Of a stretch of 64,000 nt of DNA, positions 46,234-61,362 are shown piece by piece. The stretch is from Lysobacter dokdonensis DS-58. Its GTDB lineage: Bacteria; Pseudomonadota; Gammaproteobacteria; Xanthomonadales; Xanthomonadaceae. The stretch covers positions 372,001-436,000 of the forward strand of contig NZ_JRKJ01000002.1 of the NCBI RefSeq assembly GCF_000770795.1, in the 5' to 3' direction. The stretch's first letter is position 1. Each line of letters opens with the position of its first letter. The position numbers and the translations under genes were made by a program. The notes below the pieces were generated by a model, which saw only the letters and a list, made by a program, of their open reading frames with translations, was not told the DNA's origin and did not search any database.

Positions 46234-46302
46234 CATCGACCACTTCCGTGCCAAGCGGAGGCATCATTTGGCTTTACCATGCCTCTGTGCTCCGCGTTGC
46301 GC

Positions 46303-46566
46303 TCATTCGCAACCGTTCGTCGCCACGCGTGGTCGGTCTTCGAGCAGCAATCTCCTGCGCGGGGAGATGAAGGACACATTGGCCTCTCGAAGAACCTCGA
46401 CGTACTCCGCGGCGGCCTTGGCGGCGATTTCCATCGTGGCGCATCCCATTCCGGGAACCGCGCGCTCGCGCACATAACCAGGATCACCGTCATCGCTCAC
46501 GAGCACGACCGGGCGGAAATTCCCCTGGGATCTGGGATACGCGGCGACTCTATAGACCTTGCTCAT
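46303..46566 (-). CDS. small hypothetical protein
   Basis: An 87-residue protein with a strong ribosome site (GGAGGG 4 nt before ATG 46566). Alpha/beta pattern: SKVYRVAAYPRS, VVLVSDDGDPG, then helix MEIAAKAAAEYVEVLREA and a basic tail. Unrecognised; may be a small regulatory or antitoxin-like protein, but this is not shown. Confidence 0.6.
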   Translation of the reverse strand: MSKVYRVAAYPRSQGNFRPVVLVSDDGDPGYVRERAVPGMGCATMEIAAKAAAEYVEVLREANVSFISPRRRLLLEDRPRVATNGCE

Positions 46567-46779
46567 TTGCCCTCCCTGGATCGCAGCCCAACAACGCCTT
46601 CTGTACCCTGGCGCGTAGTTGGTCTGTGATTTCGGCCTGAACGCGTGCCCAAATAGTTGCTTCGGTTCAGGCTGTGATGTCCCTGCGCACCGGGGAAATA
46701 GCGTCGCCAGCTATGAGCAACGAGAACTGCGCCACGCGCTACCGCGCTTGGCCGACACCTGACAGATGGCATCGGCGAA

Positions 46780-46832
46780 TGTCCCCTCTTGGCCGATAGC
46801 GGACATCAAGTAGTAGTGACCACTTTCGACCC
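46780..46832. repeat. dispersed repeat, A-B composite
   Basis: Type A TGTCCCCTCTT-GGCC-GATAGCGGACA (46780-46805) then a half type B (GACCACTTT-CGACCC, 46818-46832). The intergenic stretch 46567-46932 holds this and nothing else I can support. Confidence 0.65.
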
Positions 46833-46932
46833 AATTGAAGCTTGGTCACGTCGTCGCCTTTCGGTAACGCATGGCGCCAATTGCCTGCGTGGGGTACGTT
46901 CAACGTCGATCCGCACGAAGTGGCCCGCCCGA

Positions 46933-47826
46933 ATGGACAGATCCAACCAGCGTCAGTTGCACATCATTCCGGTCGTCGGCGCAGTTGCGGCGATGTTCTT
47001 GTTGGCCGGCAATGCACGCAGCGCGTCACCGCAATCCGCGCCGAGGGCCGGCGACGAATACGAGATCAGCAAGTCTTACCAAACCTCCGGGCGGACCAGT
47101 GATGGCGGCTCGGGATCCTCCAATGGTCGCGATGTCATTCTCGAGCGCGTGATCGCCGTGCGCGAGGGCGGTCTGGAGCTGGAATACGATCTTCCGAAAG
47201 AGGCCACGGCCGACGACAGGGCGCGCAGTTGGCAGTTTCCGGTGCGTGTTTTCAGGCCGACCAAGGGCGCCATGCAGCTTCTCAATGGCAGCGAGCTCGA
47301 AGAGCGCGTCGACACTTGGCTCAAGGCCGGCGATTTCACGCGCGCCGATTGCGGGCGATGGATCTTTACGTGGAATGCATTCCGCATGGAATGCGATCCC
47401 CAGTCGGTCATCAAGACGCTGGAGGCGTTTGACCTGCGATCCGCTGACATCCGGGAGGGCGTCACTTACCAGGACAGCGAAGCCGAGGGCACCGGAACGT
47501 TGACGAAAAAAGCAACGCGGCCAGACGGTGCGACGTTTGCGGTCGAGATGGGGGTCGACCCTGGCGCACTTCGTCGCGCTCGCGCCGAGGCCGATGTCGC
47601 TGCCGGGGAGATCATGCAGCAGCCGGTGACGCTGGACGCGGCACTGCGCGAGCGCGCGAAGGAGCGCGTGACCGGGACCAGGACGGTCACTTTCGAGACC
47701 GATACGGCCGGGAATGTTCGGAGTCGAACCAGTGTGACCCAGGTGGAGATCCAGGGCGCGGCCGGCAAAACCGAAAGCCGGACGGTGACGGAGACTGTCG
47801 AACGTCGGGCTGTTTCAGGGGGCTGA
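46933..47826 (+). CDS. exported hypothetical protein
   Basis: A 297-residue protein with N-terminal signal segment (IIPVVGAVAAMFLLAG, cut near ARSAS). The mature part is acidic, beta-rich, with two Cys (ADCGRW, MECDPQ) and a charged C-terminal half (AEADVAAGEI, TETVERRAVSGG). No family recognised. ATG 46933 gives the signal peptide; the longer frame starts inside repeat DNA. Confidence 0.65.
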   Translation: MDRSNQRQLHIIPVVGAVAAMFLLAGNARSASPQSAPRAGDEYEISKSYQTSGRTSDGGSGSSNGRDVILERVIAVREGGLELEYDLPKEATADDRARSWQFPVRVFRPTKGAMQLLNGSELEERVDTWLKAGDFTRADCGRWIFTWNAFRMECDPQSVIKTLEAFDLRSADIREGVTYQDSEAEGTGTLTKKATRPDGATFAVEMGVDPGALRRARAEADVAAGEIMQQPVTLDAALRERAKERVTGTRTVTFETDTAGNVRSRTSVTQVEIQGAAGKTESRTVTETVERRAVSGG

Positions 47827-47843
47827 CACGTGGTCGAGCTTTG

Positions 47844-47898
47844 CAGGGAGCCGATCGTTTTCGCTACGGCAGCGTCCGCTTTCGACCCAAAGCGGACA
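47844..47898. repeat. 35-bp duplicated flank fused to a type B repeat
   Basis: 47844-47878 repeats the sequence at 44791-44825 in inverse orientation. It runs directly into the type B palindrome CGTCCGCTTT-CGACCC-AAAGCGGACA (47873-47898). Confidence 0.7.
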
Positions 47899-47972
47899 TC
47901 CGATACGCAGGTGTATTTTTCCAACGCGGGGCGACCGGTTACGATGTCGCGGTTCGCAAGGGGAACGAAGGC

Positions 47973-48728
47973 GTGCGCGGATTGCGTGTGGTGTTGGCGA
48001 TGCTCGTGGGGGCGTGCATCGGCGTAAGCGTTGTCGTGATGTTCCATCGTGACCGCTTTGCCTGGCCGGCGTCCGTGCCGGCCGCGGTGGTGCCCATGTG
48101 TGCGGTGATCGCGATCGCCGCCCTATGGAAATGGCGCCGCCTCGACATTGACATCGGGTTGGCCGTCGACAGCGCGATCGAGGCACTTTCGCGTTCGTCC
48201 AAATTCGAAGCCTCGATTCGCAAATCGTGGGTGATCGGGACCGTCGTGAGCGTATTGCTCATGGTTGCGATCGTCCTCGTGCCAACGCGAGATCCGAACA
48301 GCGCCAAGCAGGTCGTCGGGGGCGCAGTGCTGTTCGCCATCCCGTGCGGAATGCTGGTCTTCGGCTATTTGTTCAAATCCGGGCCGACGCTCGTGATCGA
48401 TGCGCACGGCCTGCGGCACGCCGCGTTTGGCCGAATCCCCTGGGTGTCCATCGTGGGCCTGAAGTACGTGGAAACCGCTTCTGGGGGCTACAAAGTGCGA
48501 AGGCTCCTCATCGCCATCGCCTCGCCGCATCGGTTCGCGCGCCAGTTGCCTTGGCTAATGCGGTTCGTGCGGCCGTCGCTTGCGTCGGCAGCCACTCCGT
48601 TCGGCGAATTGCAAGTGTGGCTCGACGCGCTCGACGAGCCGCACGAAGTGATCGTCGCCGCCGCGCACGAGTTCCGGGAGCGCGCCGCGTTGATTGCCAT
48701 GGATGCCGACGCGCCGACGTCATCGTAG
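47973..48728 (+). CDS. polytopic membrane protein
   Basis: A 251-residue protein with about four membrane helices (VVLAMLVGACIGVSVVV, VVPMCAVIAIAALW, VIGTVVSVLLMVAIVLV, AVLFAIPCGMLVFGYLF) and a soluble C-terminal domain (from about residue 140) of PH-like appearance. GTG 47973 has GGGGAACGAAGG upstream. Family not recognised. Confidence 0.6.
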   Translation: MRGLRVVLAMLVGACIGVSVVVMFHRDRFAWPASVPAAVVPMCAVIAIAALWKWRRLDIDIGLAVDSAIEALSRSSKFEASIRKSWVIGTVVSVLLMVAIVLVPTRDPNSAKQVVGGAVLFAIPCGMLVFGYLFKSGPTLVIDAHGLRHAAFGRIPWVSIVGLKYVETASGGYKVRRLLIAIASPHRFARQLPWLMRFVRPSLASAATPFGELQVWLDALDEPHEVIVAAAHEFRERAALIAMDADAPTSS

Positions 48729-48767
48729 AGCAACACATTTGATCAGCCGCGCTCAGTAAAGTACGGA

Positions 48768-48832
48768 TGTCCGCTTTTGGCCGAAAGCTGCCATTGGTTA
48801 CCGGGTGACTGCTTTCGACCCAAAGCGGACAC
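48768..48832. repeat. dispersed repeat, A-B composite
   Basis: Type A TGTCCGCTTTT-GGCC-GAAAGCTGCCA, 15 bp, then type B GACTGCTTT-CGACCC-AAAGCGGACA. Confidence 0.75.
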
Positions 48833-48898
48833 TCGGTCCGCACTTCGGCTTTCGGCGTGTAATGGCTGTGAGCCAGGTGGAGGCAATGCGCTCTTGAC

Positions 48899-49255
48899 CT
48901 ATGAGCCTTCGGCCTGACGCTCTCGATCGATCCGAGCATAGGACAAAGCGTCGTCGAGCTTGTCGTAGAGAATGCTCCGATATCGAAATTTCACTCCGTC
49001 CCTTGATACATCGAGCTTCTGCATGGCTGCCGAATCCATCGTCGGACTCACGGACTCGTCAAATCGATCACGCTCGCCCTTGGCCAAGGCCGCGAGAACG
49101 CACCGATACAGGTTCACTGCGTTCTCAGCCTCCAGCACCGCGCTTGTCCCACAAGGGTGCGTAGCTCGCGCGATCAGGGAAGATGTCAGCAAGGCTGCGA
49201 CGTGAGCATCTGACTCGCGCGCGCGCTCTATGCCGCTAGACCATTCATTACCCAT
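48899..49255 (-). CDS. small hypothetical protein
   Basis: A 118-residue mostly helical soluble protein (MGNEWSSGIERARESDAHVA's pattern; LEAENAVNLYRCVLAALAKG; DDALSYARIDRERQAEGS). ATG 49255 has GAGGAG upstream. Not recognised. Confidence 0.55.
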   Translation of the reverse strand: MGNEWSSGIERARESDAHVAALLTSSLIARATHPCGTSAVLEAENAVNLYRCVLAALAKGERDRFDESVSPTMDSAAMQKLDVSRDGVKFRYRSILYDKLDDALSYARIDRERQAEGS

Positions 49256-49292
49256 GTCAATTAACTCCTCATCTGCTTGTAGTTGGTTCACG

Positions 49293-49676
49293 TCACGTCC
49301 GGGGCAAGGGCCAGCCCTCGTATTCGGCTGCCGACAGCGCCTCCGCGCTAGCGACATCAGGGCGTGCGATGAACGCACCTCCCAAACCAAGGTAGCGATG
49401 CAGATGGTTGTAGCGAGATCTCCAGGCGCCCCGCGTTCGGGGTGTATCCGGACCGCCGCGACGAAGCGGGAAACGCTCCGAGCTCGCGACGTCGTCTTTC
49501 ACTAGGTAGATGAGACGCTGGAGGTAAGGCGACCGAACGGTTGCGCAGTTGCGGTACGCCTCGAGAGATTCAAGCACCTCACGCAATGTGAGGTTGTGAT
49601 TTTTCGACGATTGCGCGGACGCGACTAGCCGCCATCGCCAAGGGCGAGATTCAAATAGTTGAGCGAAGGAGAACAT
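49293..49676 (-). CDS. hypothetical protein
   Basis: A 127-residue basic protein beginning MFSFAQLFESRPWRWRLV with a helical segment LTLREVLESLEAYR and LQRLIYLVKDDV. No known domain. ATG 49676 follows AGAGGTGTGGA. Confidence 0.45.
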   Translation of the reverse strand: MFSFAQLFESRPWRWRLVASAQSSKNHNLTLREVLESLEAYRNCATVRSPYLQRLIYLVKDDVASSERFPLRRGGPDTPRTRGAWRSRYNHLHRYLGLGGAFIARPDVASAEALSAAEYEGWPLPRT

Positions 49677-49854
49677 TCCACACCTCTTACGGGCCGGCGC
49701 ATGAAGCGCGGAGCCAATTCGCAAGTCGGCGGGCGTCGAAAATGGACGAATGGCACGGTGGCCTTGGACAAACAATGCGCCCTCGCCCGTGACCGAGTCG
49801 TGACTCTGGCGCGGACGTGAACGACGCAAGGGCATCAGTGGTGGGATTCAGGTC

Positions 49855-50118
49855 TCATCCGTGCAATCCGTAGTGCGACGTCGACTCGCTCAGACTATCG
49901 CGACCCGCTTTGACGTCGTCCTGAAGGGCGCGGCGCGCATCAGACCACCCCGCGTACTGAACGGCAGCAATAGCGTCACGCCGGACGTGCTTCTTGATCT
50001 GGTGATCGAATGCCGGATCGATAGGCGCATCGTAAGTCTCGCCCCGTGTTGGCGTTCGAACGAGACCGCTAAGCAGACGGCCCAGTCTGCGCGCAAGGAT
50101 TCGTCGATTGAATTTCAT
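49855..50118 (-). CDS. small basic hypothetical protein
   Basis: An 87-residue basic, helical protein (MKFNRRILARRLGRLLSGLV). Weak ribosome site, so support is moderate. Confidence 0.4.
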   Translation of the reverse strand: MKFNRRILARRLGRLLSGLVRTPTRGETYDAPIDPAFDHQIKKHVRRDAIAAVQYAGWSDARRALQDDVKAGRDSLSESTSHYGLHG

Positions 50119-50756
50119 GGAGAGTCACCAGAGGAACTGCGATAAAACCTCAGAGTCGGCACGGCCAGGCGAGTGCTAAGGGCCGACGTAAAGCGTGGCG
50201 AACGCACTATGCACTGCTCCTCATCTCCTTGGCGTCACGAGAGCTACCGCCGGAATGACCCCATACAGTTTCATCGACTTCCGGAGGCGCACACTACGGT
50301 GTCATTCCCATGCCGAAGTGATTTGACGCGAGGCAAAATCATGAAACATCCGTCGCCGTCGCAACGCCGCTCTCGTGCGCGAGCAATTCTTTGGAATCTG
50401 TGCACGGCCCCCTCGATACCGAGAACAGGTTGGCCGCCGCTATCAGTCACACCTCTTTTGCGGAGACGTGCGACTGATGCAGAGCCTTGGCATCCCGAAG
50501 GTCCGCACTACTCGTGGAAGCGGCAACCATGAGCGCGGCAGCATCAGGCCCAATACGACGCGTTGTCTTCTTCCACATCACGCTTCTGTAACCAGGGGGC
50601 GCGCAGTCTGGATGGGCACCGGACAACACGGATGTCTGTCCGACGGCACTCACCGAATTGCATCCTCGCCTTTGAGCCCCAAGGCCTGTTCAACAGGCAA
50701 TCTTTGGCGATGGCCAATCAACGATCCCGATTCGGGATCCTACAAAGGTGAGACGC
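50119..50756. other. no supported gene
   Basis: Six hundred bases with several overlapping short frames, none having a ribosome site, domain or paralogue. No palindromic repeat of the dispersed family is seen here. The 3' end carries the ribosome site of the next small gene. Confidence 0.5.
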
Positions 50757-50945
50757 ATGAATAACTCCAATAGCACCGACGCCGGCAAGAGCACTGGCCA
50801 GCAGACACCCCCGGCCAAGAAGGTCGAGGGCGCCAACGAATCGCAGCCTGTAAAGGCCGAAGATCCGGGCACCGACACGGACCGCCAGGTCGCCGGGGAT
50901 TCGAAGCAATCGACGGATGACGCGGGGGGCAAGTCCCTCCGATAA
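50757..50945 (+). CDS. small hydrophilic, disordered protein
   Basis: A 62-residue protein of low complexity, rich in Asn, Ser, Thr, Lys, Asp and Gly, without hydrophobic core; predicted disordered. ATG 50757 follows AAGGTGAG at 5 nt, and a strong terminator lies 20 bp after the stop, so it is a complete transcription unit. Function unknown. Confidence 0.6.
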   Translation: MNNSNSTDAGKSTGQQTPPAKKVEGANESQPVKAEDPGTDTDRQVAGDSKQSTDDAGGKSLR

Positions 50946-50964
50946 TCCACACGATTCGGCGAGT

Positions 50965-50996
50965 AAAGGGCGGAGCATTGCTCCGCCCTTTTTTTT
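50965..50996 (+). terminator. strong intrinsic terminator
   Basis: AAAGGGCGGAGC pairs with GCTCCGCCCTTT around ATT and continues into eight T residues. Terminates the small disordered protein's gene. Confidence 0.9.
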
Positions 50997-51104
50997 GTGC
51001 AAAACCTGCGTCGTATAGCGGATTTCAACTCAATCGCTATGCGCGTCAACGTCGCGGGCGGGGCTCCAGGACCCTGCAAACTGGGATTGGTGGACATTCG
51101 CGAA

Positions 51105-51163
51105 TGTCCGCTTCTGGCCGATAGCGGACATTCGACCGTGACCGCTTTCGACCCAAAGCGGAC
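51105..51163. repeat. dispersed repeat, best-preserved A-B composite
   Basis: Type A TGTCCGCTTCT-GGCC-GATAGCGGACA (51105-51130), 9 bp, type B GACCGCTTT-CGACCC-AAAGCGGAC (51140-51163). Preceded by a GGACATTCGCGAATGTCC palindrome (51092-51109) sharing its left arm. Most of the gene-free stretch 50997-51277 is this element. Confidence 0.8.
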
Positions 51164-51277
51164 GCCCTGGGGACCTTCAACCGTGCTTGACGCATGAGGT
51201 AGTAGCGTCCCAACGCTTTTCGAGGAGTAGCGATTCACAGCCAGCCTCTGCTGTTCTTACGCAGGGAAATTGCAGAC

Positions 51278-51517
51278 ATGAGCGACCGGTTTAAAGCCTA
51301 TCGTTGTCGGGACGGCGGCGTGCTTATCGCCCCCGAGTGTTTGCAGCCCTCATTTCATGAGCGCCACGCTCACGGCCCCCTTATACCGATAGGAACTGTG
51401 CGCTGCGAAGACTTTCCTGAGGACGTCTGCGGGGAAATCCAGCGTCAGGTCGAAAATCAGCTCTATGCGTTGGTTACCCTCGAACAATGGAGGCGAGGAA
51501 CCCGTGCGACGTCCTGA
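51278..51517 (+). CDS. four-cysteine small protein family, copy 2
   Basis: A 79-residue member of the four-Cys family: CRDGG-x-L-IAPEC then IGTVRCEDFPEDVC. The first Cys pair spacing is one residue longer than copy 1. No signal peptide. ATG 51278. Confidence 0.6.
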   Translation: MSDRFKAYRCRDGGVLIAPECLQPSFHERHAHGPLIPIGTVRCEDFPEDVCGEIQRQVENQLYALVTLEQWRRGTRATS

Positions 51518-51628
51518 AACTGTTGAAAGCTCGCTGGGAGCGCGGCGTCGATTCCCGTAGTTTTACGGCGCATCGCTGAGTGGTTTTACGGCTGGGCTTT
51601 TCCGGTTCTGGAGGAGACGCTGCCGCAC

Positions 51629-51883
51629 ATGAGCCGCCCCACGCTCGAAAAGCTGGAAGACGTCACGATCGAGCGCATGCTTGCCGTCAGAGCGGTCCGG
51701 GCTTGCGATGGTTACATTTCCCGACTGCTGTGGGAGCACCCGGCTTCGTCGTCCACAGTGGAGTTGCTCATCAGCGTGCAGGAAATTAGCGAGGAATTCG
51801 TGGCGCCGGTTCGCAAGCGCGTTTCCCAATTGCTGATTGAGTCTCAGCAGGTGCACAACGTGAAAGCAGAAGTGCCTCCTTGA
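51629..51883 (+). CDS. small helical protein
   Basis: An 84-residue all-helical soluble protein (LEKLEDVTIERMLAVRAVRA; VSQLLIESQQVHN). GGAGGAGA lies upstream of ATG 51629. Unrecognised. Confidence 0.5.
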   Translation: MSRPTLEKLEDVTIERMLAVRAVRACDGYISRLLWEHPASSSTVELLISVQEISEEFVAPVRKRVSQLLIESQQVHNVKAEVPP

Positions 51884-52096
51884 AAAATTCGACGCAGAGC
51901 GACACTTCGAGCGTTAGCTAATTCCGCATCTCGCCGAAGCGGACGCCTCTCAAGCGGCCCTTCTGCGCGCATCCCGCCATAATCGCCACGACCACGACCG
52001 GTGGGATCAGGACGGGACACCAAGGCACCTGCTGCGCAAAAGGGTCTCATACGTCCGGATTGGCGCGCCGTTCAGCAACGGCGTATCGTGCCGCCG

Positions 52097-53626
52097 ATGT
52101 CCGTATCCTCCCCAATCGATCGTACCTCGCGTCACGACGTCGCGCCCGTCACGGACGCCGACTTTCGCTGGCTCGTCGAATCGGTGGCCGACTACGCCAT
52201 CTTCCTGCTCGACGCGCAGGGCCGCATCCGTTCCTGGAACGAGGGCGCGCGCCGGTTAAAGGGCTACACCGAAGAGGAAGTCATCGGTCGCAGCTTTGAG
52301 CTGTTCTATTCTGACGAACAAATCGCTACCGGCTACCCTGGGTACGAGCTGGACATGGCCAAGCGTACTGGCCGATTCGAGGACGAGGGCTGGCGTCTGC
52401 GCCGCGATGGGAGCCGCTTCTGGGCCAGCGTGGTCATCACGGCCCTGTACGACGAGCATGGTGCCCCTCGTGGCTTCGCCAAAATCACCCGCGACCTCAC
52501 CGAGCGGCGTAAGCAAGAAGAGTTGCTCCGCCAGTCGGAGGAGATGTTCCGGCTGATGGTGGACGCCGTGCGCGACTACGCCATTTTTATGCTCGACCCG
52601 AAAGGCTGTGTCGCAACTTGGAACCTCGGCGCCCAGCTCACGAAGGGCTACACCGCCGAGGAGATCATCGGTCGCCATTTCTCCATCTTCTACCCGAAGG
52701 AGAAGGTTGACATCGACTGGCCGAGGCAGGAGCTGGAAATGGTCCTGCGCGACGGCCAGTACGAAGAGGAGGGTTGGCGCGTACGGAAGGACGGCAGCCT
52801 CTTCTGGGCTAACGTCGTAATAACCGCAGTCTACGACGCCGAGGGCCGCCACCGCGGATTCGCCAAGGTCACTCGCAACCTTACCGACCGCCGCCGCATC
52901 GACGCGCTAGAGGAACAAGAGCGCCGACTTACCCAGTTCCTCGCGGTGTTGGGCCACGAGCTGCGCAACCCGCTCACGCCCATCGCGAACGCGGTCTCCA
53001 TCATGCAGATGGACGAGCCGGTGAAGCCGCGCATCATCGCGGCGCGCGACATCCTCGCCCGGCAGGTGCCGCAATTGAAGCGCCTGGTGGATGACCTGCT
53101 CGACCTAGGCCGCATCACCAGCGGAAAGGTGCAACTGAGTTTGCGCCCGCTTGAGTTGCAGCAGGTGATTAACGAAGGTGTTGAGGCGGTGCGGCCTCTG
53201 ATGGAGGAGCGCGGCCACCGCTTAACGGTCGACGTCGGCAGCGAGGCGATGTGGGTGCTGGGAGACCGCACTCGGTTGGTTCAAGTGCTCACCAACCTCT
53301 TGAACAATGCCGCCAAGTTCACGCCGCCCGGCGGCAGCATAACGCTGTCCCTTTCGCGCGAGGCCGATCGTGCGGTGCTGCGTGTGCGCGACAACGGACC
53401 AGGCATTCCGCCGGAGCAACTGCCCCGCATATTCAAGCTGTTCGCACAGGCCGACGTAAACGTGGTCGGCGAAGGGCATGGCGGCCTCGGCATCGGCCTG
53501 AGTTTGGTGCAGCAGATGGTCTTGCTGCATGGCGGCGACGTGAGCGCACACAGCACCGGGATATCGGGCGAGGGCGCTGAGTTCGTTGTGCGCCTACCGT
53601 TAGACGAACGATTATCCCCAGCCTGA
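52097..53626 (+). CDS. PAS-PAS hybrid sensor histidine kinase
   Basis: A 509-residue soluble kinase. Two PAS/PAC units (about 22-135 and 150-262) each with the W(N)EGARRLKGYTEEEVIGR-type core and RDGSRFWA PAC motif. The H-box is GHELRNPL (His287), then NLLNNAAKFTPPGG, DNGPGIPPEQ and GGLGIGLSLV. No receiver domain and no LOV Cys, so flavin photochemistry is not expected. It is a recognisable full-length gene in the accessory stretch, with the recombinase 113 bp after it. Confidence 0.88.
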   Translation: MSVSSPIDRTSRHDVAPVTDADFRWLVESVADYAIFLLDAQGRIRSWNEGARRLKGYTEEEVIGRSFELFYSDEQIATGYPGYELDMAKRTGRFEDEGWRLRRDGSRFWASVVITALYDEHGAPRGFAKITRDLTERRKQEELLRQSEEMFRLMVDAVRDYAIFMLDPKGCVATWNLGAQLTKGYTAEEIIGRHFSIFYPKEKVDIDWPRQELEMVLRDGQYEEEGWRVRKDGSLFWANVVITAVYDAEGRHRGFAKVTRNLTDRRRIDALEEQERRLTQFLAVLGHELRNPLTPIANAVSIMQMDEPVKPRIIAARDILARQVPQLKRLVDDLLDLGRITSGKVQLSLRPLELQQVINEGVEAVRPLMEERGHRLTVDVGSEAMWVLGDRTRLVQVLTNLLNNAAKFTPPGGSITLSLSREADRAVLRVRDNGPGIPPEQLPRIFKLFAQADVNVVGEGHGGLGIGLSLVQQMVLLHGGDVSAHSTGISGEGAEFVVRLPLDERLSPA

Positions 53627-53650
53627 TCCCCTCGCCAAACGATGCACGGA

Positions 53651-53676
53651 TGTCCGCTTTTGGCCGAAAGCTGCCA
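53651..53676. repeat. dispersed repeat, type A, left of the recombinase
   Basis: TGTCCGCTTTT-GGCC-GAAAGCTGCCA, 64 bp before the recombinase ATG. With the copy at 54379 it brackets the gene. Confidence 0.75.
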
Positions 53677-53739
53677 CACACCCGGTGCTGAACGGCCGTG
53701 AGTCCAAGTTCTCCTTCCTGTCCGGGAACGGAGAACGTC

Positions 53740-54354
53740 ATGAACCAACCGTGCAAACGACCCGCTTGGAATAGCGGCAAGCTCGTGGGACAGAAGGCCC
53801 CGCTCAAGCTCAAGGAAATCTGGGGCATCCGGTTCAGACTCCAGCTCGCCGACGATGTTCGCAAGCTTGCCCTTTTCGACTTGGCTATCGACAGCAAGCT
53901 CAGGGCTTGTGACCTGGTCCGTCTCCATGTGCGCGACGTAACCCACGGGGCGCAGATTGCGCCACGCGCGCGCATAATTCAGCGCAAGACTAGGCGCCCC
54001 GTCCAATTTGAAATCAGCCCTCCGACTCGCGACGTTCTGGCTTCGTGGATCGAATCGCGCCATCTCCCGCCGGATGGCTATCTATTCCCAAGTCGCCAAT
54101 GCGACGGCTCGCACCTTTCGACGCGGCAGTACGCACGCATCGTCAAAGGGTGGGTGCGAAGCATCGGTCTGGGTGAGCCTAGCTACGGGACCCACTCGAT
54201 GCGTCGCACCAAGGCATCCCTGATCTATCAACGCACCAAAAACTTACGCGCCGTCCAGCTATTGCTTGGTCATTCGAAGATTGAGAGCACGGTCCGCTAT
54301 CTGGGCGTTGAGGTGGATGACGCCTTGAGCATGGCCGAACAAACGGAGGTCTGA
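53740..54354 (+). CDS. stand-alone tyrosine recombinase/integrase
   Basis: A 204-residue integrase catalytic domain with no N-terminal arm-binding or SAM-like domain. Catalytic residues visible: Arg55 (SKLRACDL), Lys83 (QRK), His152 and Arg155 (HSMR), His178 (LGH) and Tyr187 (VRYLG). All six are present, so it should be active. This short form is known widely as a catalytic-domain-only recombinase. ATG 53740 has GGAG 6 nt upstream. Type A repeats lie 64 bp before the gene and 24 bp after it. Confidence 0.88.
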   Translation: MNQPCKRPAWNSGKLVGQKAPLKLKEIWGIRFRLQLADDVRKLALFDLAIDSKLRACDLVRLHVRDVTHGAQIAPRARIIQRKTRRPVQFEISPPTRDVLASWIESRHLPPDGYLFPSRQCDGSHLSTRQYARIVKGWVRSIGLGEPSYGTHSMRRTKASLIYQRTKNLRAVQLLLGHSKIESTVRYLGVEVDDALSMAEQTEV

Positions 54355-54378
54355 CTCGCCTGCTAGCGGCAAATCACG

Positions 54379-54404
54379 TGTCCGCTTTCGGCCAGAAGCG
54401 GACA
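54379..54404. repeat. dispersed repeat, type A, right of the recombinase
   Basis: TGTCCGCTTTC-GGCC-AGAAGCGGACA: a near-perfect palindrome, 24 bp after the recombinase stop. The stop-to-repeat spacer matches that of the fragment at 40958. Confidence 0.8.
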
Positions 54405-54453
54405 TTGGCCAAACTCCTAGGTTGAGCGCGCAGTGAGGCGAACAACAATGTTG

Positions 54454-54648
54454 TTAACGCCAGGATTCGCGAACGAAGTCCCTGACGGTCGACCACGGCC
54501 AATTGTTACCCAATCGAGTCACTTGCCGCCAAGCCCGCTCGGCGTACGGCTCGACTTCTTCCCATGGTTCGTTGTGCCACACGGACTGCAACGTTTGGAC
54601 GAAGAAGGAAACCTCTTCGGCCTGCTCCAGTAGGTGCTTCTCGTCCAT
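54454..54648 (-). CDS. small Trp-rich protein, paralogue pair member 1
   Basis: A 64-residue soluble protein with several Trp. It aligns with the first 65 residues of the divergent gene at 54922 (E-x-VSF, VW near 24, W-x-EV, W at the end). Strong ribosome site GGGAGG before ATG 54648. Confidence 0.65.
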   Translation of the reverse strand: MDEKHLLEQAEEVSFFVQTLQSVWHNEPWEEVEPYAERAWRQVTRLGNNWPWSTVRDFVRESWR

Positions 54649-54782
54649 GCGAGACCTCCCGCGGAGGAAAATCTAGGACGTGTCTGATGGGCATAACAAG
54701 ATGCCTCTCAGCTGTGTCCGACGAGCGGTCCCTAGGCGCCGATTCGGACGCCCCGAGCACGTGGCCTGCTTAACGATTCAGC

Positions 54783-54846
54783 ATGGATAGCCAGACGCGC
54801 TTGCCTCACATGGACAGCCAGACGCGCCTGCCTCACATGGACAGAG
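54783..54846. repeat. 27-bp tandem repeat, 2.4 copies
   Basis: Units start at 54783, 54810 and 54837 (ATGGACAGCCAGACGCGCC followed by TGCCTCAC; the third is cut short). The array ends right at the -10 box of the leader promoter, in the position of a regulatory array. Confidence 0.75.
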
Positions 54847-54921
54847 GTATAAAATAGCGCACAGCGGCGACCCAATTGACGCCGCGGACTTGGGCCTCCG
54901 TGCAGCTCATCGGAGGCCGTT
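54847..54921 (+). promoter_or_regulatory. shared promoter/leader, copy 2
   Basis: GTATAAAAT -10 box at 54847-54855, then GCGGCG (54864-54869) pairing CGCCGC (54880-54885), then TTGGGCCTCCGTGCAGCTC. GGCCTCC (54893-54899) can pair GGAGGCC (54912-54918), which contains the GGAGG ribosome site just before ATG 54922. A self-sequestering ribosome site is therefore predicted. Confidence 0.7.
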
Positions 54922-55323
54922 ATGAATACGAACGCAGCCACCTCACTAGAGGTGGAGAGCTTTATCGCTGCTATCACGAATTTGTTTTGGGGTCACAGCT
55001 GGGCTGACGTCAAATCGCTTGCCCGGCTCACATGGATTGAAGGCAATCGATCCGGTATTGAATGGGAGGCCGTCGAGGCCCAAGTCGAGAAAGGCTGGAA
55101 CGAACATCATGGCCGTCGCCATAGCGATCGCCGACAAGAATCGGCTTTGGAACAACTCGACCTCTTCTACAAGCTTGAACGAATTCGGTGCGGCAAGGCA
55201 TCGACGAAGGATGTTCTGTACGTACGCTTGCTTGATCAAGGCTTGATTGACGGGAGCACACCTCCGAAGTTGACGGACGTTGGCCAAGGCATGCTCAACG
55301 ATCTACGCCCGGCAATTGATTAG
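54922..55323 (+). CDS. Trp-rich protein, paralogue pair member 2, with C-terminal extension
   Basis: A 133-residue protein. The first 62 residues match the gene at 54454-54648 (VESFIAAITNLFWGHSW...W...W); residues 65-133 are an added helical domain with LEQLDLFYKLERIRCGKAS. Translation lies behind the structured leader. No family recognised. Confidence 0.62.
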   Translation: MNTNAATSLEVESFIAAITNLFWGHSWADVKSLARLTWIEGNRSGIEWEAVEAQVEKGWNEHHGRRHSDRRQESALEQLDLFYKLERIRCGKASTKDVLYVRLLDQGLIDGSTPPKLTDVGQGMLNDLRPAID

Positions 55324-55386
55324 AAAAAGGAAGTCCGCTAGGCATCAGCTACTCAGCTGGAGTCGGCGAGGAGCAGCCACGCTGAG

Positions 55387-55480
55387 TGACCGCTATGGGT
55401 CGAAAGCGGCCACTCGCCAGCCCCCGCGATCGCCCCTTATACGAGCTGGTTCGTTCCTATGTCCGCTATCGGCGAAGGCG
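55387..55480. repeat. dispersed repeat, separated B and A units
   Basis: Type B TGACCGCTAT-GGGTCG-AAAGCGGCCA (55387-55412) and a partial type A TGTCCGCTATC-GGC (55460-55480), 47 bp apart. Confidence 0.6.
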
Positions 55481-55483
55481 CGG

Positions 55484-55744
55484 TTAGTCTGCCGGCAATA
55501 TGTGCCGCGAGACATCGACACCATGGGCCTCTTCCGACGTAAGAAAGGAATAGGCTTTGGATTCAATGTCACTCCGAATCCGCTCGCAGTACACGGGGCC
55601 CAAGTCGCGACAACGGATCAGACCAAGACGTGAGGAGCACGAACGGAAGCGTTCAGCCTCTATAGGAGGGACCATGCAGGCGTGGGACATCAGTATCCCG
55701 TGCCGGCAGCCATAGACGTTTACCTCGAGATCGCACTCCGTCAT
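55484..55744 (-). CDS. four-cysteine small protein family, copy 3
   Basis: An 86-residue four-Cys protein: YGCRHGILMSHACMVPP then LGLIRCRDLGPVYCERI. The pattern C-x2-G-x-L-x4-C ... C-x6-C matches copies 1 and 4. ATG 55744; the longer upstream frame is not needed. Confidence 0.6.
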   Translation of the reverse strand: MTECDLEVNVYGCRHGILMSHACMVPPIEAERFRSCSSRLGLIRCRDLGPVYCERIRSDIESKAYSFLTSEEAHGVDVSRHILPAD

Positions 55745-55915
55745 GCGGTGAGCTTCGCCTCCCATCCACGAAGAACGGGTGAAGTGGCACGCCTCAGCTT
55801 TACGATGGCAGGGGATTTCGAGAACCGGCGTCACCGCCGGGATTTTTCGCAAGTCCGGCAAGAGGGGCTAGGCTAACCGCAGAGGTAGAGCCGCCATCAT
55901 TCTGGACCGTCCGTC

Positions 55916-56152
55916 ATGCGTGTCGAAGACTTAACGCGAAAGACACTTGAGGACAGCCGATGCGTCTGCGTTACCGACGGCCATCACACTGTGATGATCT
56001 GGCAGAACCCCGACGATAACTCTCACGTTGGCGTCTGCACGCTCGTGAACTTGCCAGAGATTCGCGTGCAGCCGATAGCCGAACTGATCGCACGGATTCG
56101 CGAGTTAGGATGGAACTCGGGATTCGAACCGCGGAACCACCAAGAGTCTTAG
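55916..56152 (+). CDS. small hypothetical protein
   Basis: A 78-residue alpha/beta protein (CVCVTDGHHTVMIWQNPDD through ELIARIRELGW). Weak ribosome site, no close paralogue found in the window. Confidence 0.45.
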   Translation: MRVEDLTRKTLEDSRCVCVTDGHHTVMIWQNPDDNSHVGVCTLVNLPEIRVQPIAELIARIRELGWNSGFEPRNHQES

Positions 56153-56182
56153 CACGCTTGTCTTCTATGAAAGTGGACTGCC

Positions 56183-56371
56183 TCAGATAGCGAGCAACGC
56201 GCCCGTATCGTAGTTGTAGATGGGGGTGATTTCGTTGGTGCCGCGTGCGAGGCGAATCGCCTCTAGGCATTCCTCCAGAGACGCGCAAGGCTCCCCTCGG
56301 GCCACGATTCCGTCCGGGCCGACCAACCGCCAGCGCCATTCCTGACCCCACTGGAATACTTCAAAGCCCAT
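56183..56371 (-). CDS. YegP/DUF1508-like small protein
   Basis: A 62-residue protein resembling one half of a YegP/DUF1508 repeat: WRWRLVGPDGIVARGEPCASLEECLEAIRLA. GAGGCGGGG precedes ATG 56371. These domains bind small ligands or act in stress responses in other bacteria. Confidence 0.6.
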   Translation of the reverse strand: MGFEVFQWGQEWRWRLVGPDGIVARGEPCASLEECLEAIRLARGTNEITPIYNYDTGALLAI

Positions 56372-56470
56372 CCCCGCCTCGCGCGTAAACTAGATACCGG
56401 AGTAAACGCAGGCGCACTAGAATCGCCGGACAGCGCTCCCGTGGGCGCTGAACGAGACCAGGGGCGGCCA

Positions 56471-56725
56471 GTGAGCCAAGTGGCATGTGTTTTGGTCCAA
56501 TTCGTCGGCGGACCCCTCCATGGCGAATGTCGATGGGTGGCCGAGGTATCGGAGATTCACGAGCACGAATTACCGACGGGGCACGTAGCGGTGTACAGGC
56601 TCCGAAAAGCGCCTATGGGGGTCGATTGGGGGGCGCGCATATACGCCCCGGTGGGTATGTCGGAGAGCGTCTACATCGATCAGTTCGCCACACTGCCGCG
56701 CCCCGCGTCCGGTGCACTCGACTGA
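56471..56725 (+). CDS. small hypothetical protein
   Basis: An 84-residue beta-rich protein starting at GTG 56471 (LVQFVGGPLHGECRWVAEV, then YRLRKAP, YIDQFATLP). Not recognised; start tentative. Confidence 0.45.
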   Translation: MSQVACVLVQFVGGPLHGECRWVAEVSEIHEHELPTGHVAVYRLRKAPMGVDWGARIYAPVGMSESVYIDQFATLPRPASGALD

Positions 56726-56750
56726 GAGAACACTGAGGTCCGGACTGACG

Positions 56751-57182
56751 TCAGCTACGCGACGGATATGCAGGCTGGGATGCAGGTTGCGGACGTGGCA
56801 TTTGTGTTACTGGGCTGAAAGCCCCGTGTTCCAACCAATCGACCGCGCTTTCGAGATCCGGGAAGACGATGGCGGGCACGTGCCTAACCTGGCACGCCAA
56901 CTCGGCGGGCCAAGCAATGCTTCGGGAAACCCCCACGAAAGCAACCTTTGCGTTGGGCACCGAAAACGCGGTAATCGCGCAAGCGATGAAGTCGGCGCGC
57001 TCAGCCGCGCCCTCTTCCACGACCACCGCGTGGGTGAAGTCGACCAGCAGGTTTTTAGCGCCCGTATGACGCATGCGATCGACAGCCCGGGGCAGAGCTT
57101 TTGCGCGTTCCAAGTATCCAACCAACCCCGCATACGTGAGCAGGATGGTGGATTCATCTAGCGGTTTAAGACAGTAGGCCAT
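56751..57182 (-). CDS. SpoIIAA/STAS-like protein, copy 2
   Basis: A 143-residue protein with the same order as the STAS-like proteins at 41508 and 57618: LTYAGLVGYLERAKALPRAV, NLLVDFTHAVVVEEG, ARVAFVGVS-like KVAFVGVS and FPDLESAVDWLEHGA. A Pro-rich tail follows. ATG 57182 fits the domain start. Confidence 0.6.
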   Translation of the reverse strand: MAYCLKPLDESTILLTYAGLVGYLERAKALPRAVDRMRHTGAKNLLVDFTHAVVVEEGAAERADFIACAITAFSVPNAKVAFVGVSRSIAWPAELACQVRHVPAIVFPDLESAVDWLEHGAFSPVTQMPRPQPASQPAYPSRS

Positions 57183-57617
57183 GTACGCGCCGAAGACCCT
57201 CACAAATTTGGTCCTCTCGGCGTGGAGATTCCGCTGCCAACGAAGCCGGAACAAGCGCCGAGAGTCCGAATATATGACCGGCAAGAACAAGCACGTGTCA
57301 AAGCTCGCCGCAGTTGCCTGAATTATTCAACTTGCGGGATGCCCTGCCCGCGCTGCCGTGACTCTTGTCAACGCCAGCGGCCCTGGATGAAAGCTCCTGA
57401 CGACGAGCGCGGTGTCGTCGGTACTGATTGGAAGGTCGCCGCCCTGACCTAATCCGGGAAGGTGTAAACGTCCACATGCGGGTTTACAGTTCTGCGTCTC
57501 GCCCGGCGGTGAATACGTATTCAACCATGCCGAGGGTGGATTACGGATGCGGGCTCATCAGAGGAAAGAGTAGCGTCCGCGCCTTCCCCCGACGACCGAC
57601 ACCCCCGTGTCGCTCCC
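57183..57617. other. no supported gene
   Basis: About 430 bases separate two divergently placed STAS-like genes. Short frames exist but lack ribosome sites or recognisable products. No dispersed repeat seen. Confidence 0.5.
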
Positions 57618-58031
57618 ATGCACCTCTCCCTGCATCTTTCCGCACGTGAAACCCGGTTGTCTGCGGTCCTGACCGGGCCGGTGACGTACGCCGATCGCCG
57701 GCGCGCGATGGAAAAGGTCTGCGAGACCGCAGCCGCGCGTGGCATCGCCCGGTTCTTGGTCGACTTCACCCTTGCCTGGCACGTGGTGGGGGACCCCCTC
57801 GAAAAGGAAGCCTTCTTCCAGGCTCTCAGCGGCCGGCACGAGCTTGCCGGCGCGCGGATCGCATACGTCAACTGTCCCGAGGGCAGCATTTCGGAGTTGC
57901 ACGCCGCCGCGGATGCCCTGGGCTTCTCCGCGGGGATGTTCCGGGATCGCAGCAGGGCGATCGAGTGGTTAAAGCACGGCGCGGTTGCCGAGGCGCCGCC
58001 GCGTCCCCTCGCGTTTGGGGTGAGACAGTGA
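57618..58031 (+). CDS. SpoIIAA/STAS-like protein, copy 3
   Basis: A 137-residue protein, LTGPVTYADRRRAMEKV near the N-terminus, RFLVDFTLAWHVVGDP in the middle (the LVDFT strand shared with copy 2), then ARIAYVNCPEG and MFRDRSRAIEWLKHGA. Members regulate or bind lipids or nucleotides; no partner kinase is adjacent. Confidence 0.65.
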   Translation: MHLSLHLSARETRLSAVLTGPVTYADRRRAMEKVCETAAARGIARFLVDFTLAWHVVGDPLEKEAFFQALSGRHELAGARIAYVNCPEGSISELHAAADALGFSAGMFRDRSRAIEWLKHGAVAEAPPRPLAFGVRQ

Positions 58032-58089
58032 CGCCTTGCTCGCGGGCCCGAGGGGTTTCCCCGACGCGCGAACGGGTCTATCAGACGCG

Positions 58090-58281
58090 TCACCGTCTCG
58101 ACGTGTGGTGGGAACGTCCGCTACCACTCTTCTTGCCGCCACCGTCCTGCTTGTTAACAGTCGCCCAAGCGACCCGTTCGGCCTTCTCGTCCGACGCGCC
58201 ATCTTTTTTGTAACCTTCTTCGATGTGCTCGGCCTGTCGCTTCTGCTTGTCGGTGTAAGCGTCTTTGCTTCCGCGTGCCAT
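58090..58281 (-). CDS. small conserved hydrophilic protein (MARGSK... type)
   Basis: A 63-residue hydrophilic protein starting MARGSKDAYTDKQKRQAEHI and containing WATVNKQDGGGKKSGSGR. This short protein type is widely conserved in proteobacteria and often labelled plasmid-stabilisation-like; I know of no proven function. ATG 58281. Confidence 0.7.
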   Translation of the reverse strand: MARGSKDAYTDKQKRQAEHIEEGYKKDGASDEKAERVAWATVNKQDGGGKKSGSGRSHHTSRR

Positions 58282-58477
58282 AACCTGCTGGTCCTGCTCG
58301 CCGCCACGATGCGGCGTCTGCAAGCGTAGGCCGGAATCAGTTAACTCAGCGCGACGCGGGAGGTGCCCGGCGAGTGGCGGTTGATTAACGATTCGCGTTG
58401 ATGCTGCGCGCCTACACTATTACGCGACAAGCGGGACTTCCTGGGGCAGCCCGCGCAACTGGAAGATGTCCGCCTAG

Positions 58478-58538
58478 TGTCCGTTTGGGTGATAGCAGTC
58501 ACCCCGGCCCAAAGTCCGCATCCGGCCAGAAGCGGTCA
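58478..58538. repeat. dispersed repeat, decayed B-A composite
   Basis: A decayed type B (TGTCCGTTT-GGGTGA-TAGCAGTCA) and a type A (GTCCGCATCC-GGCC-AGAAGCGGTCA) 12 bp apart, preceded by another partial arm. The rest of 58324-58606 shows nothing supportable. Confidence 0.6.
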
Positions 58539-58606
58539 TCGCCAGGTCGTCCGGAGCGCAACCAGTCGCGCTAGGCGGACACTTCTTTCGACAAAGCATG
58601 CAGAAG

Positions 58607-58690
58607 GCGTATAAGGAGTGTGCACCGCGACGAGAACACCGCGCCGCAGAACTTGGGCCTCCGTGCAGCTCCTATTCAGGACGAGCTGCC
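58607..58690 (+). promoter_or_regulatory. shared promoter/leader, copy 3
   Basis: GTATAAGGAGT -10-like box, a GCGACG...CGCCGC stem with one mismatch, then ACTTGGGCCTCCGTGCAGCTC. GCAGCTC (58665-58671) pairs perfectly with GAGCTGC (58683-58689), ending one base before ATG 58691; the AGGA ribosome site lies in the loop. Confidence 0.7.
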
Positions 58691-58975
58691 ATGAGCCCAG
58701 AGTCGGCGCACGCAACCGCGCGCCTAGATGCGGCAATCGAAGCCAGTCGAGGGGTACGTGCCGCCTTGCACGAATCGCTCTCAAGGTCTGCAGAGGAATG
58801 CAAGAGCATCCGAATTTGCGTGCAGGAAGCCAAAGAATTATATCGGCAGGTAAGCGAACAAGGACTGGCACCGCTGAGAAAGATTGGACCGAGGCCAGAG
58901 AACCTGACGAAGGCAGAGACGGAGGTCCTGACCGACGAGAAGCGAAGGCTTATCGATTCGAGTCGAATTCCCTGA
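58691..58975 (+). CDS. small helical MSP-family protein, leader copy 3
   Basis: A 94-residue charged helical, probably coiled-coil protein (MSPESAHATARLDAAIEASR start; RSAEECKSIRICVQEAKELY). Its start resembles the protein at 40586-40777; both genes have the shared leader. Confidence 0.6.
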   Translation: MSPESAHATARLDAAIEASRGVRAALHESLSRSAEECKSIRICVQEAKELYRQVSEQGLAPLRKIGPRPENLTKAETEVLTDEKRRLIDSSRIP

Positions 58976-58991
58976 CCGTTCCGATTGCGAA

Positions 58992-59234
58992 ATGGTCATC
59001 GAAGATTTCTCGTGGTACCCGTCAGAAGCGCATAAAGGCGAGCATCTGCGATGTGGAACCGACGGCATTGACTACGCCAGAGTGGTCCGGGCGGGTGTTC
59101 ATGATGAGTGGGTCGCTACGGTCAATTTGCACAGACCACTTGACGAGCATCGAAGCGCAACTTTCGACAGCGAGGCTGAAGCAAAGGTTGGCGTACGTGA
59201 ATGGTTGTGCGGTGTACTCGAGTCGCCCGCGTGA
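58992..59234 (+). CDS. small hypothetical protein
   Basis: An 80-residue protein, MVIEDFSWYPSEAHKGE, beta-rich with two Cys (LRCGTDG, WLCGVL). It follows the previous gene by 16 bp and could be co-transcribed. Not recognised. Confidence 0.5.
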   Translation: MVIEDFSWYPSEAHKGEHLRCGTDGIDYARVVRAGVHDEWVATVNLHRPLDEHRSATFDSEAEAKVGVREWLCGVLESPA

Positions 59235-59258
59235 ACCTAACGCGAAATGCAGGCGGAG

Positions 59259-59522
59259 TTATGCCATTTGAGGCGGCGGATTCTTGCTCGCAAGCCCGGG
59301 AATGCCGACGCGAAACGCCTCAGCGGTACTGACGAAAGAGAATTGCTTGTCGTCGATGTCCTGTTCAATGAACGAGCAGAGATCGGCCGGGAGTTCCTCG
59401 CAGTCCACGACCCCAAGCAAAGCAGAGACGGGCCAGTGCGCCCTGGTCGCGTTACGGGGCGCCAGCATGCAATCGGACGACAGCAGAAACCCGTCCTTGC
59501 AGGCGAATACGTTGAGCTTCAC
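59259..59522 (-). CDS. four-cysteine small protein family, copy 4
   Basis: An 87-residue protein closest to copy 1 (VKLNVFAC, LLSSDCMLAPRNAT, LGVVDCEELPADLC). Cys spacing is the same as copy 1. Probable GTG start at 59522; the longer frame upstream crosses a dispersed repeat at 59667 and is not believed. Confidence 0.62.
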   Translation of the reverse strand: MKLNVFACKDGFLLSSDCMLAPRNATRAHWPVSALLGVVDCEELPADLCSFIEQDIDDKQFSFVSTAEAFRVGIPGLASKNPPPQMA

Positions 59523-59666
59523 GGCGCGGAGAATACCGCCGCCCCAACCCACCTGAAAAGTCACCCGCCGCGGGGCTTGCCGCAGAGCTTCGTTCATCTT
59601 CCGGAACGGCGCGAATTGCAGGTCAAATAGCGCAGCAACCGACGGATTAATGTTACGTCGGCCGAA

Positions 59667-59692
59667 TGTCCGCTTTGGGTCGTTAGCGGTCA
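59667..59692. repeat. dispersed palindromic repeat, type B
   Basis: TGTCCGCTTT-GGGTCG-TTAGCGGTCA; the TTAGCGG right arm is the same variant as at 45948. Confidence 0.7.
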
Positions 59693-59737
59693 CCTGGTGA
59701 AGGGGACGCCTTCCAATGCATTCAAGCGTCAGCAGGA

Positions 59738-60232
59738 TCAACGGGGCGCGTAGTACTGGAAATTTAATCGAGGCCGGCCGGATTCGTCCTTCGACACAAC
59801 ATCATCCGAATACAACTCCACCGGCAATCCCCTGTACCCCCGTCCCGGCAGGATATCGACCATGACTTCGTCCTCGCGACTGTCCAGGCAGTTGCTACAG
59901 CGTCTGACGCCGACGACACGAAATGCGGTGCCTTCGGGCAGGTCATCGCACCAAAGCACTTCGGGACCGCTGAAGCCGGGTGGCGCCATGACGACGACCT
60001 CGTCGGCAGGCGGCTTGTAGTCCCGATCCATGGTGATTCCGCAGGCAGGCATCGGAATCGCGAAGGCGTATTCCTTGCCCACGATGCCGACGTATTCGGG
60101 CGCATGGGTGACATCAGCATACTCCGCGCGCCCGTGGGCCATCTTGATCACGAACCACAGGATCACCAGGCCGAACGCGAAAGCGATCGCAGCACCAATC
60201 ATGGCGACGCGCGTGCCTCGTCTTCTGATCAT
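59738..60232 (-). CDS. membrane-anchored hypothetical protein
   Basis: A 164-residue protein with one N-terminal transmembrane helix (IGAAIAFAFGLVILWFVIKM) and a soluble domain with four Cys (MPACGIT, LWCDDL, RRCSNCLD). ATG 60232 follows GGGGAACTGC; an upstream GTG is possible. Unrecognised. Confidence 0.6.
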   Translation of the reverse strand: MIRRRGTRVAMIGAAIAFAFGLVILWFVIKMAHGRAEYADVTHAPEYVGIVGKEYAFAIPMPACGITMDRDYKPPADEVVVMAPPGFSGPEVLWCDDLPEGTAFRVVGVRRCSNCLDSREDEVMVDILPGRGYRGLPVELYSDDVVSKDESGRPRLNFQYYAPR

Positions 60233-60331
60233 GCAGTTCCCCGTTGGATTCACGCAGGCTACCGGACCACGTAGTTCAGCGCGAGGAGTTGGCCGAATGC
60301 CCGCTCGTTAGAGGTCAACCCGGTGATCCGC

Positions 60332-60355
60332 GTCCGCTATCGGCCAAAAGCGGAC
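60332..60355. repeat. dispersed palindromic repeat, type A
   Basis: GTCCGCTATC-GGCC-AAAAGCGGAC, intact arms. Confidence 0.75.
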
Positions 60356-60374
60356 ATTGGGCCGGCCCCGGTGG

Positions 60375-61292: not shown

Positions 61293-61362
61293 GAGGGCCC
61301 CTGCCTGATGACTCGGCGCAATGTAGAGGAAATCGGCGGGAGAGTGACACCGGGTCATGGAC

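Follow-up and report, generated by a model that had tools for sequence, protein, structure and literature searches.

What does a tyrosine recombinase of only 204 amino acids do when it stands between two palindromes in an array of similar palindromes? We addressed this question in a 64,000-nucleotide stretch of the genome of Lysobacter dokdonensis DS-58 (the whole stretch is referred to as the window), where an earlier note had placed the enzyme between two copies of a repeat and suggested that these repeats are its recombination sites.

The recombinase and the palindrome island

The recombinase frame yields 204 amino acids when counted from its ATG. A GTG upstream, at 53698, gives a longer open frame, but the ATG and the first residues are common to L020, whose match (92%, 200-811) is also that of the same-genus genome G003. 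A Pfam scan gave Phage_integrase (PF00589) as the sole match (E 3e-20, residues 38-189), and no core-binding domain was found, as there was no Pfam family beyond PF00589. R55, K83, H152, R155, H178 and Y187, which we take to be the six catalytic residues by the R-K-H-R-H-Y motif, were invariant in all 30 aligned relatives, a hand-chosen subset of the copies. The description of the protein in the earlier note, as a complete catalytic-domain-only recombinase of 204 residues with six catalytic residues, was thus confirmed. The AlphaFold model was of moderate confidence (pLDDT 72), and pLDDT fell below 50 at residues 1-18, 54-56, 149-155 and 202-204, so that part of the active site is poorly placed. 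A fold search with this model returned XerA, XerH and Cre as best matches and the integron integrase 2a3v at rank 31. The protein scored 22.4 bits against the tyrosine-type DNA invertase family NF007371 of NCBIfam (cut-off 222) and 22.8 bits against IntI (TIGR02249), below the cut-off of 265 bits. According to PMC8138268, a simple tyrosine recombinase consists of a core-binding and a catalytic domain, unlike the window recombinase, for which none of the former was found. Its own genome holds one close copy and two weak matches; the family is widespread, with relatives in 1,457 plasmid records at E ≤1e-5 (116 of these with at least 60% identity) and at least 545 in genome contigs. The gene and its immediate surroundings are as follows.

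53740..54354, + strand: tyrosine recombinase, catalytic-domain-only type, 204 aa (ORF, Pfam, alignment, AlphaFold model)
53651..53676, - strand: left A palindrome, TGTCCGCTTTTGGCCGAAAGCTGCCA, A- orientation, core GGCC at 53662-53665 (sequence, site scan)
54379..54404, + strand: right A palindrome, TGTCCGCTTTCGGCCAGAAGCGGACA, A+ orientation, core GGCC at 54390-54393 (sequence, site scan)
53662..54393, + strand: inferred mobile unit, core to core, 732 bp (homology with two other full same-genus copies)

Both type A repeats were where they had been reported, the right one starting 24 nt past the stop codon as stated; the gap between the left palindrome and the ATG is 63 nt and not 64. A palindrome lies at an equal distance on the left in L020 (= L151) and L106 (= L150), and at a near-equal distance on the right in L020; the right palindrome of the same-genus copy L106 was not recognisable. 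The two other full same-genus copies share with the window only 53647-54409 and 53647-54384, that is, from palindrome to palindrome. We refer to this inferred unit as the element. Separately, 48763-48793 and 53646-53676 are identical over 31 nt. The stretch includes a complete A palindrome, one half of which, AAAGCTGCCA, is of the element type, and it may be a trace left by the element at another location.

The window contains about 27 palindromes of 26 bp, of types A and B, in a 23-kb island of lower GC.

38445..61881, no strand: island with A/B palindromes between gene-sized units, a cassette array (site scan, GC, unit ORFs)
45949..46045, no strand: hub, an inverted B+/B- pair where site polarity flips (site scan, polarity)
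40957..41032, + strand: remains of a second recombinase unit, comprising its last codons and the right A site (repeat family D11, site scan)
51105..51164, - strand: A-B double site, 8-nt spacer (site scan; one imperfect hairpin, z -5.4)
48768..48831, - strand: A-B double site, 12-nt spacer, its A palindrome identical to that left of the recombinase (site scan)
42068..42130, + strand: B-A double site, 11-nt spacer, B degenerate (site scan)
43458..43518, + strand: B-A double site, 9-nt spacer, A degenerate (site scan)
60331..60356, + strand: A palindrome (site scan)
61856..61881, + strand: B palindrome, the last accepted site of the window (site scan)

The palindromes are not a chance feature: one 26-nt pattern allowing up to 3 mismatches gave 28 matches in the window against a mean of 0.00 in 100 shuffles; the count includes both strands, so many sites are counted twice. 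A separate site scan found 28 sites at a penalty of ≤7 and 23 at ≤5; the reversed window gave 3 and 0, respectively. All 28 scanned sites lie within 38445-61881, and the one at 54706 is probably false. GC content, calculated over 2 kb, was 0.58-0.65 across this interval and 0.61-0.71 upstream. The remnant of the second unit is 82% identical over 72 nt, covering the 3' end of the recombinase and the right site. Genome-wide, the A pattern gave 17 rows at 16 places (10 in the island, 2 at C12:190 kb, 3 on contig C24 and 1 on C10), and is clustered. Site polarity is + from 38445 to 45949, - from 46020 to 53651 and + from 54379 to 61881; the first flip coincides with the inverted B pair and the second with the recombinase. 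A PAS-PAS-histidine kinase of 541 aa (52001-53626) lies within the array and exceeds the usual size of a cassette gene. A known RNA element and integration at a tRNA gene were rejected, since there were 0 Rfam matches in 36000-64000 and 0 tRNA genes in the window.

From the arrays of the window and its relatives we derived consensus sequences for A (aATGTCCGCTTCTGGCCGAWAGCGGACAtt, 93 distinct sites) and B (gTGaCCGCTTtCGACCCAAAGCGGACATtcg, 69 distinct sites). The respective 26-bp forms are TGTCCGCTTCTGGCCGAWAGCGGACA and TGACCGCTTTCGACCCAAAGCGGACA, and the two types differ at fixed positions.

Junctions and changing partners at the palindrome core

We compared the DNA around 88 near-complete recombinase copies, with partial copies and same-locus duplicates (L001, L006, L017, L100) excluded. 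At least one recognisable end was present in 45 of the 88 copies, and 43 had neither end motif. The left end lay 65 nt before the start codon in 30 of 37 cases, and the right end 42 nt past the last codon in 32 of 36. Removal of similar flanks reduced the left set from 32 to 29 and left all 32 on the right, giving non-redundant contexts that were mostly from Pseudomonas. Pairwise identity in these 29 left and 32 right flanks was ~0.25 outside the element and 0.52-0.99 (5-nt bins) inside, and the shift falls within half-palindromes: G.CcGcT..tGGCC, read up to the join, on the left and GGCCA.aAGCgG.Ca, read from the join, on the right. The half-palindrome at the homology boundary fits the target consensus and has a GGCC-like core. 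A half matching the target consensus between inside and outside indicates that the outer half is the neighbour's. Because copies were selected by end motif, conservation of the columns GGTTAGCG, CGCTAACC and GGCCA is built in; columns further out are free of this effect. Half-palindrome junctions were seen in Pseudomonas, Sinorhizobium, Agrobacterium and the organism's own genus. Junctions elsewhere than at the palindromes would have contradicted the earlier note; for the copies with recognisable ends they lay in half-palindromes, in its favour. Comparative junctions thus support the guess that the palindromes are the recombination sites of this enzyme; no recombination event was observed.

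An element need not have the same core at both ends: L031 and L047 have GGGTC on the left and GGCCA on the right, which suggests that strict core identity is not required. Among the matches listed for Agrobacterium plasmids, the element and a phosphatase unit were found repeatedly as blocks with common ends, and an element with a GNAT unit in two records. Block ends fall in recognisable half-sites in L160 (1486-1504, 2233-2249, 2955-2965), L161 (1450, 2209) and L162 (1505-1523); the block end at L162 2889 is beside a half-site, not inside it. No strict empty site, with the left flank joined straight to the right flank, was found among the matches listed by megablast with the element and its flanks (best 60 of 628, 40 of 62, 30 of 207, 9 of 9, 15 of 17, 13 of 13 and 15 of 40); a further empty-site search with the right flank only, covering 23 of 23 matches, had the same outcome. 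The right-hand homology of L131 starts ~90 nt past the junction.

Units were also found to change partners at the core. One unit, Y, ends in CAGCTTCCGCTTCTGGCC; what follows is the left end of the element in L046, the inverted right end of the element in L042 and other DNA in L049. Another, X, starts with GGCCAAATGCTGCC and is preceded by the element in L049 and by other DNA in L046 and L042. Where two palindromes are available, the element joins the second in L044 and the first in L048. The sox unit of S. meliloti, which ends in GTTCACCACCC (also noted as CACCACCC), has three partners at the core: the element (L134), AAAGCAGTCA (L139, L140, L141) and TAAGCCGACT (L142, L143). A weaker case is a ptxD-lysR neighbour, which stands at the left end of the element in L128, L023 and L024 and at its right end in L025, the join falling within the 3' end of lysR, where the site is degenerate. 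A 3.1-kb query at this junction matched 627 other plasmid records (575 of all 628 are from Klebsiella); in the 59 listed of the 627, the match is confined to ptxD-lysR and stops at this junction, and these records are not independent contexts. Some shared-flank pairs (L050/L056, L079/L081) likewise represent one context in two genomes. In L128, phnCDE-ptxD-lysR (1539-5929), for phosphite use, lies directly to the left of the element. Relative inversion was seen between L042 and L046 and between L025 and L024, and the near symmetry of the core would explain joining in both orientations. As far as sequence comparison can establish it, these cases demonstrate that exchange points lie within palindromes, that the units are modular, and that they change partners and can be inverted relative to a neighbour.

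Such junctions might arise without a dedicated enzyme, if the palindromes were fragile or cruciform sites subject to ordinary or short-homology recombination. The arms are alike, so that short homology is available, and one join lies in a degenerate site. However, the element ends at fixed distances in ~30 contexts, and partners change at the same core; we consider this explanation very unlikely.

Site pairs, arrays and distribution of the recombinase

In the arrays of the window and its relatives we found 34 distinct palindrome pairs less than 80 nt apart: 20 A-B-, 6 B+A+ (which are A-B- read on the opposite strand), 7 inverted B+B- and 1 B-B-. Spacers are 8-12, 22 or 31-34 nt in A/B pairs and 43-45 or 56 nt in inverted B pairs. 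The steps are roughly one helical turn, as if the palindromes were in helical phase, and none of 2000 uniform-spacer simulations (0/2000) was as strongly periodic; this null is weak because spacer classes can be inherited, and these classes may simply have been. Four double sites and the hub were predicted to fold as hairpins (z -3.1 to -6.5). A/B pairs can form one long imperfect hairpin, the exception among the four folded being the double site of L122, whose best structure is three hairpins, with the long hairpin only as centroid. Inverted B+/B- pairs occur in the window (45949-46045) and at L150:8105, L152:6212 and 18848, L146:5800, L147:5684 and L149:1885. A flip from + to - coincides with the pair in the window, in L150 and at both places in L152; array genes would there diverge from the hub. 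The pair in L146 has - sites to its right and none to its left, and that in L147 stands alone; in L149, + sites follow, contrary to this pattern. The inverted pair is possibly a promoter or an attI-like hub.

Short palindromes in head-to-tail and inverted pairs resemble BIMEs, and the repeats could be REP/BIME-like sequences moved by a RAYT (HUH Y1 transposase), with the recombinase among them by chance. Both kinds of repeat are short, dispersed and paired. Unlike REPs, A/B sites have genes between them, and their junctions split the palindrome, with no whole-palindrome insertion. Y1_Tnp was not found in the organism's own genome (G000) or in G002, G003, G004 and G048 (5 of 7 genomes), and was present in 2 of the 7. 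Movement by RAYT was rejected for the own genome, and overall we give it hardly any credence.

Arrays similar to the island were present in related genomes. L120 (G004) has 39 sites at a penalty of ≤7 (36 at ≤5) within ~15 kb, with units of 271-1525 bp; L122/L123 (G048) and L124 (G094) carry similar arrays, the latter with B sites only. The best ORF of each unit (one per unit by our own score, those scoring ≤20 left out) was opposite to the sign of its site in 36 cases, the same in 12 and mixed in 3, indicating that a gene tends to precede its site, as in integrons. No Pfam match was obtained for 17 of the 20 unit ORFs scanned, which need not all be genes. L120 contains two duplications, of 97.6% and 97.7% identity, which are evidence that does not depend on the recombinase. 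The duplication of 460 bp is bounded by a B palindrome and an A palindrome; in that of 649 bp only the start is in a palindrome (type A), so that 3 of 4 ends are in palindromes. Among the more diverged matches between arrays, that of L120 with L126 has a B site at one end, and neither end of that of L122 with L123 (1171-1619) is at a site. Cassettes could not be tracked well between same-genus genomes, as most homologues were too diverged for breakpoints to be placed.

Among 100 relatives, 7 had the recombinase (E ≤1e-20, some as fragments or with stops), 7 had at least 10 forward palindrome matches and 4 had both; the recombinase was thus present in 4/7 palindrome-rich relatives and in 3/93 others. 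Among 185 Gammaproteobacteria, the recombinase (E ≤1e-30) was found in 9, at least 3 matches on a strand in 5 and both in 2, which is 2/5 of those bearing palindromes against 7/180 of the others. The correlation between recombinase and repeats on which the earlier proposal depended therefore holds loosely, but arrays without the recombinase exist. Complete Lysobacter-type palindromes were absent, at the threshold used, from the stretch examined in 54 of 80 genome loci with the recombinase, and 7 loci have one within 200 nt of the gene; the pattern is blind to the hybrid TTAGCG half-sites of Pseudomonas elements.

The palindrome-rich genomes without a window-type recombinase at the E-values used (G002, G004 and G094 among the relatives; G110, G192 and G262 among the Gammaproteobacteria) favour the main rival explanation. 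According to this, the recombinase uses the palindromes only as targets and as ends of its own unit, and array cassettes are spread on the same palindromes by another enzyme, either a different tyrosine recombinase or XerCD. Candidates exist, in that further tyrosine recombinases of ~300 aa or more, presumably including XerC/XerD, weakly match the integron model in 7 of 7 genomes. However, palindromes of one kind hold both the element junctions and the ends of the bounded duplicated unit, and arrays without integrase are usual in integrons too. We regard the involvement of another enzyme as unlikely, yet still to be reckoned with.

Comparison with known systems and a proposed mechanism

The anatomy of the arrays recalls integrons, the cassette systems that spread resistance genes. 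Both have gene-sized units, mostly of orphan genes, with a palindromic, hairpin-forming site after the gene and a gene-site polarity, both involve a tyrosine recombinase, and in both arrays occur without the enzyme. The position of the site downstream of the gene (36 opposite, 12 same, 3 mixed) and the imperfect single-strand hairpin (by the z-scores above, predicted folding only) meet the integron pattern. The island might then be an integron remnant, an attC array without integrase whose unusual attC is served by a divergent IntI; GTTAGCG/CGCTAAC in Pseudomonas element ends and some B sites, with GTT/AAC triplets as in integron boxes, would fit. Integron attC boxes are RYYYAAC and GTTRRRY, and crossover takes place at one end (R') of the site only. 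In contrast, the consensus arms of A and B sites are TGTCCGCT/AGCGGACA. No whole RYYYAAC/GTTRRRY box is present in the consensus of the 93 A and 69 B sites, and the GTTAGCG of some single sites and Pseudomonas element ends is only part of a box. IntI (TIGR02249, cut-off 265 bits) exceeded its cut-off in 0 of 7 genomes, and A/B double sites are broken in both palindromes. Further differences are that the window-type enzyme consists of the catalytic domain alone and forms a mobile unit of its own, and that A/B arrays diverge in several places from an inverted B+/B- pair. No distinct attI was recognised beside the recombinase, the element ends being ordinary palindrome halves. An IntI integron was rejected on three grounds: IntI did not exceed its cut-off, the consensus lacks complete attC boxes, and both palindromes contain breakpoints. 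A remnant with a divergent IntI is highly improbable. The system functions like an integron, yet is not a member by these three tested features.

Other recombinase systems resemble the element in part. FimB/FimE-type tyrosine invertases are ~200 aa long, consist of the catalytic domain only and act between short inverted repeats, as would the window enzyme; they invert one fixed segment, whereas the window-type unit stands in 29-32 unrelated contexts, with relative inversion also seen (L042/L046). A classical FimB-type invertase does not fit these observations. Xer/dif and Cre/loxP share inverted arms around a short centre, and XerA, XerH and Cre gave the best folds, but there the enzyme includes a core-binding domain and resident sites are few; A/B sites are many, and an element may carry different cores left and right (L031, L047). 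Tn916-type elements, RIT and Tn554 are likewise mobile units that encode their own tyrosine recombinase and tolerate differing cores. They differ from the window unit in its size of 0.7 kb, its single bare-domain enzyme and its half-palindrome ends, which are common to units without the enzyme. No published description of such a system was found in open-licence PMC text, and a search of the literature with sequence strings gave only unrelated titles among the matches listed.

We consider it probable, from the sequences alone, that the locus represents an integron-like cassette system run by a self-mobile recombinase with a bare catalytic domain; its action across the arrays is inferred. The recombinase gene with its two flanking half-sites would form a self-mobile cassette of ~0.73 kb. 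The enzyme, most likely as a dimer, would bind the inverted arms of the 26-bp palindromes; in their central core, GGCC or GACCC, it would cut and exchange strands. On synapsis, two such palindromes would swap halves and so change partners. Gene-sized units bounded by palindromes could in this manner be inserted, excised, inverted and stacked into arrays, like integron cassettes. Catalysis by the window recombinase, its moving of window cassettes, its binding mode and the exact cleavage positions are inferred. The earlier note had left the choice between a minimal repeat-moving and a gene-shuffling system; gene shuffling fits better, and repeat moving less well.

A wider proposal has, in our estimate, an even chance of being correct: that Proteobacteria have a second gene-cassette system without IntI, in which a bare-catalytic-domain tyrosine recombinase, itself a cassette, carries out recombination at short A/B palindromes, both chromosomal and plasmid-borne, in bacteria ranging from Lysobacteraceae to Pseudomonas and Rhizobiaceae, and assembles orphan genes into arrays, some diverging from an inverted B+/B- hub. 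If this holds, a share of the orphan genes and palindromic repeats found in genomes and plasmids of Proteobacteria would be cassettes of an unrecognised shuffling system, and the reason why palindromes stand in arrays would become testable. The integron strategy would be workable with an enzyme of 200 residues without a core-binding domain, and a site-specific recombinase of very small size, with its 26-bp site defined, would become available. The finding would also be relevant to the way in which accessory genes on plasmids change neighbours, the sox and phosphite genes next to the element being examples.
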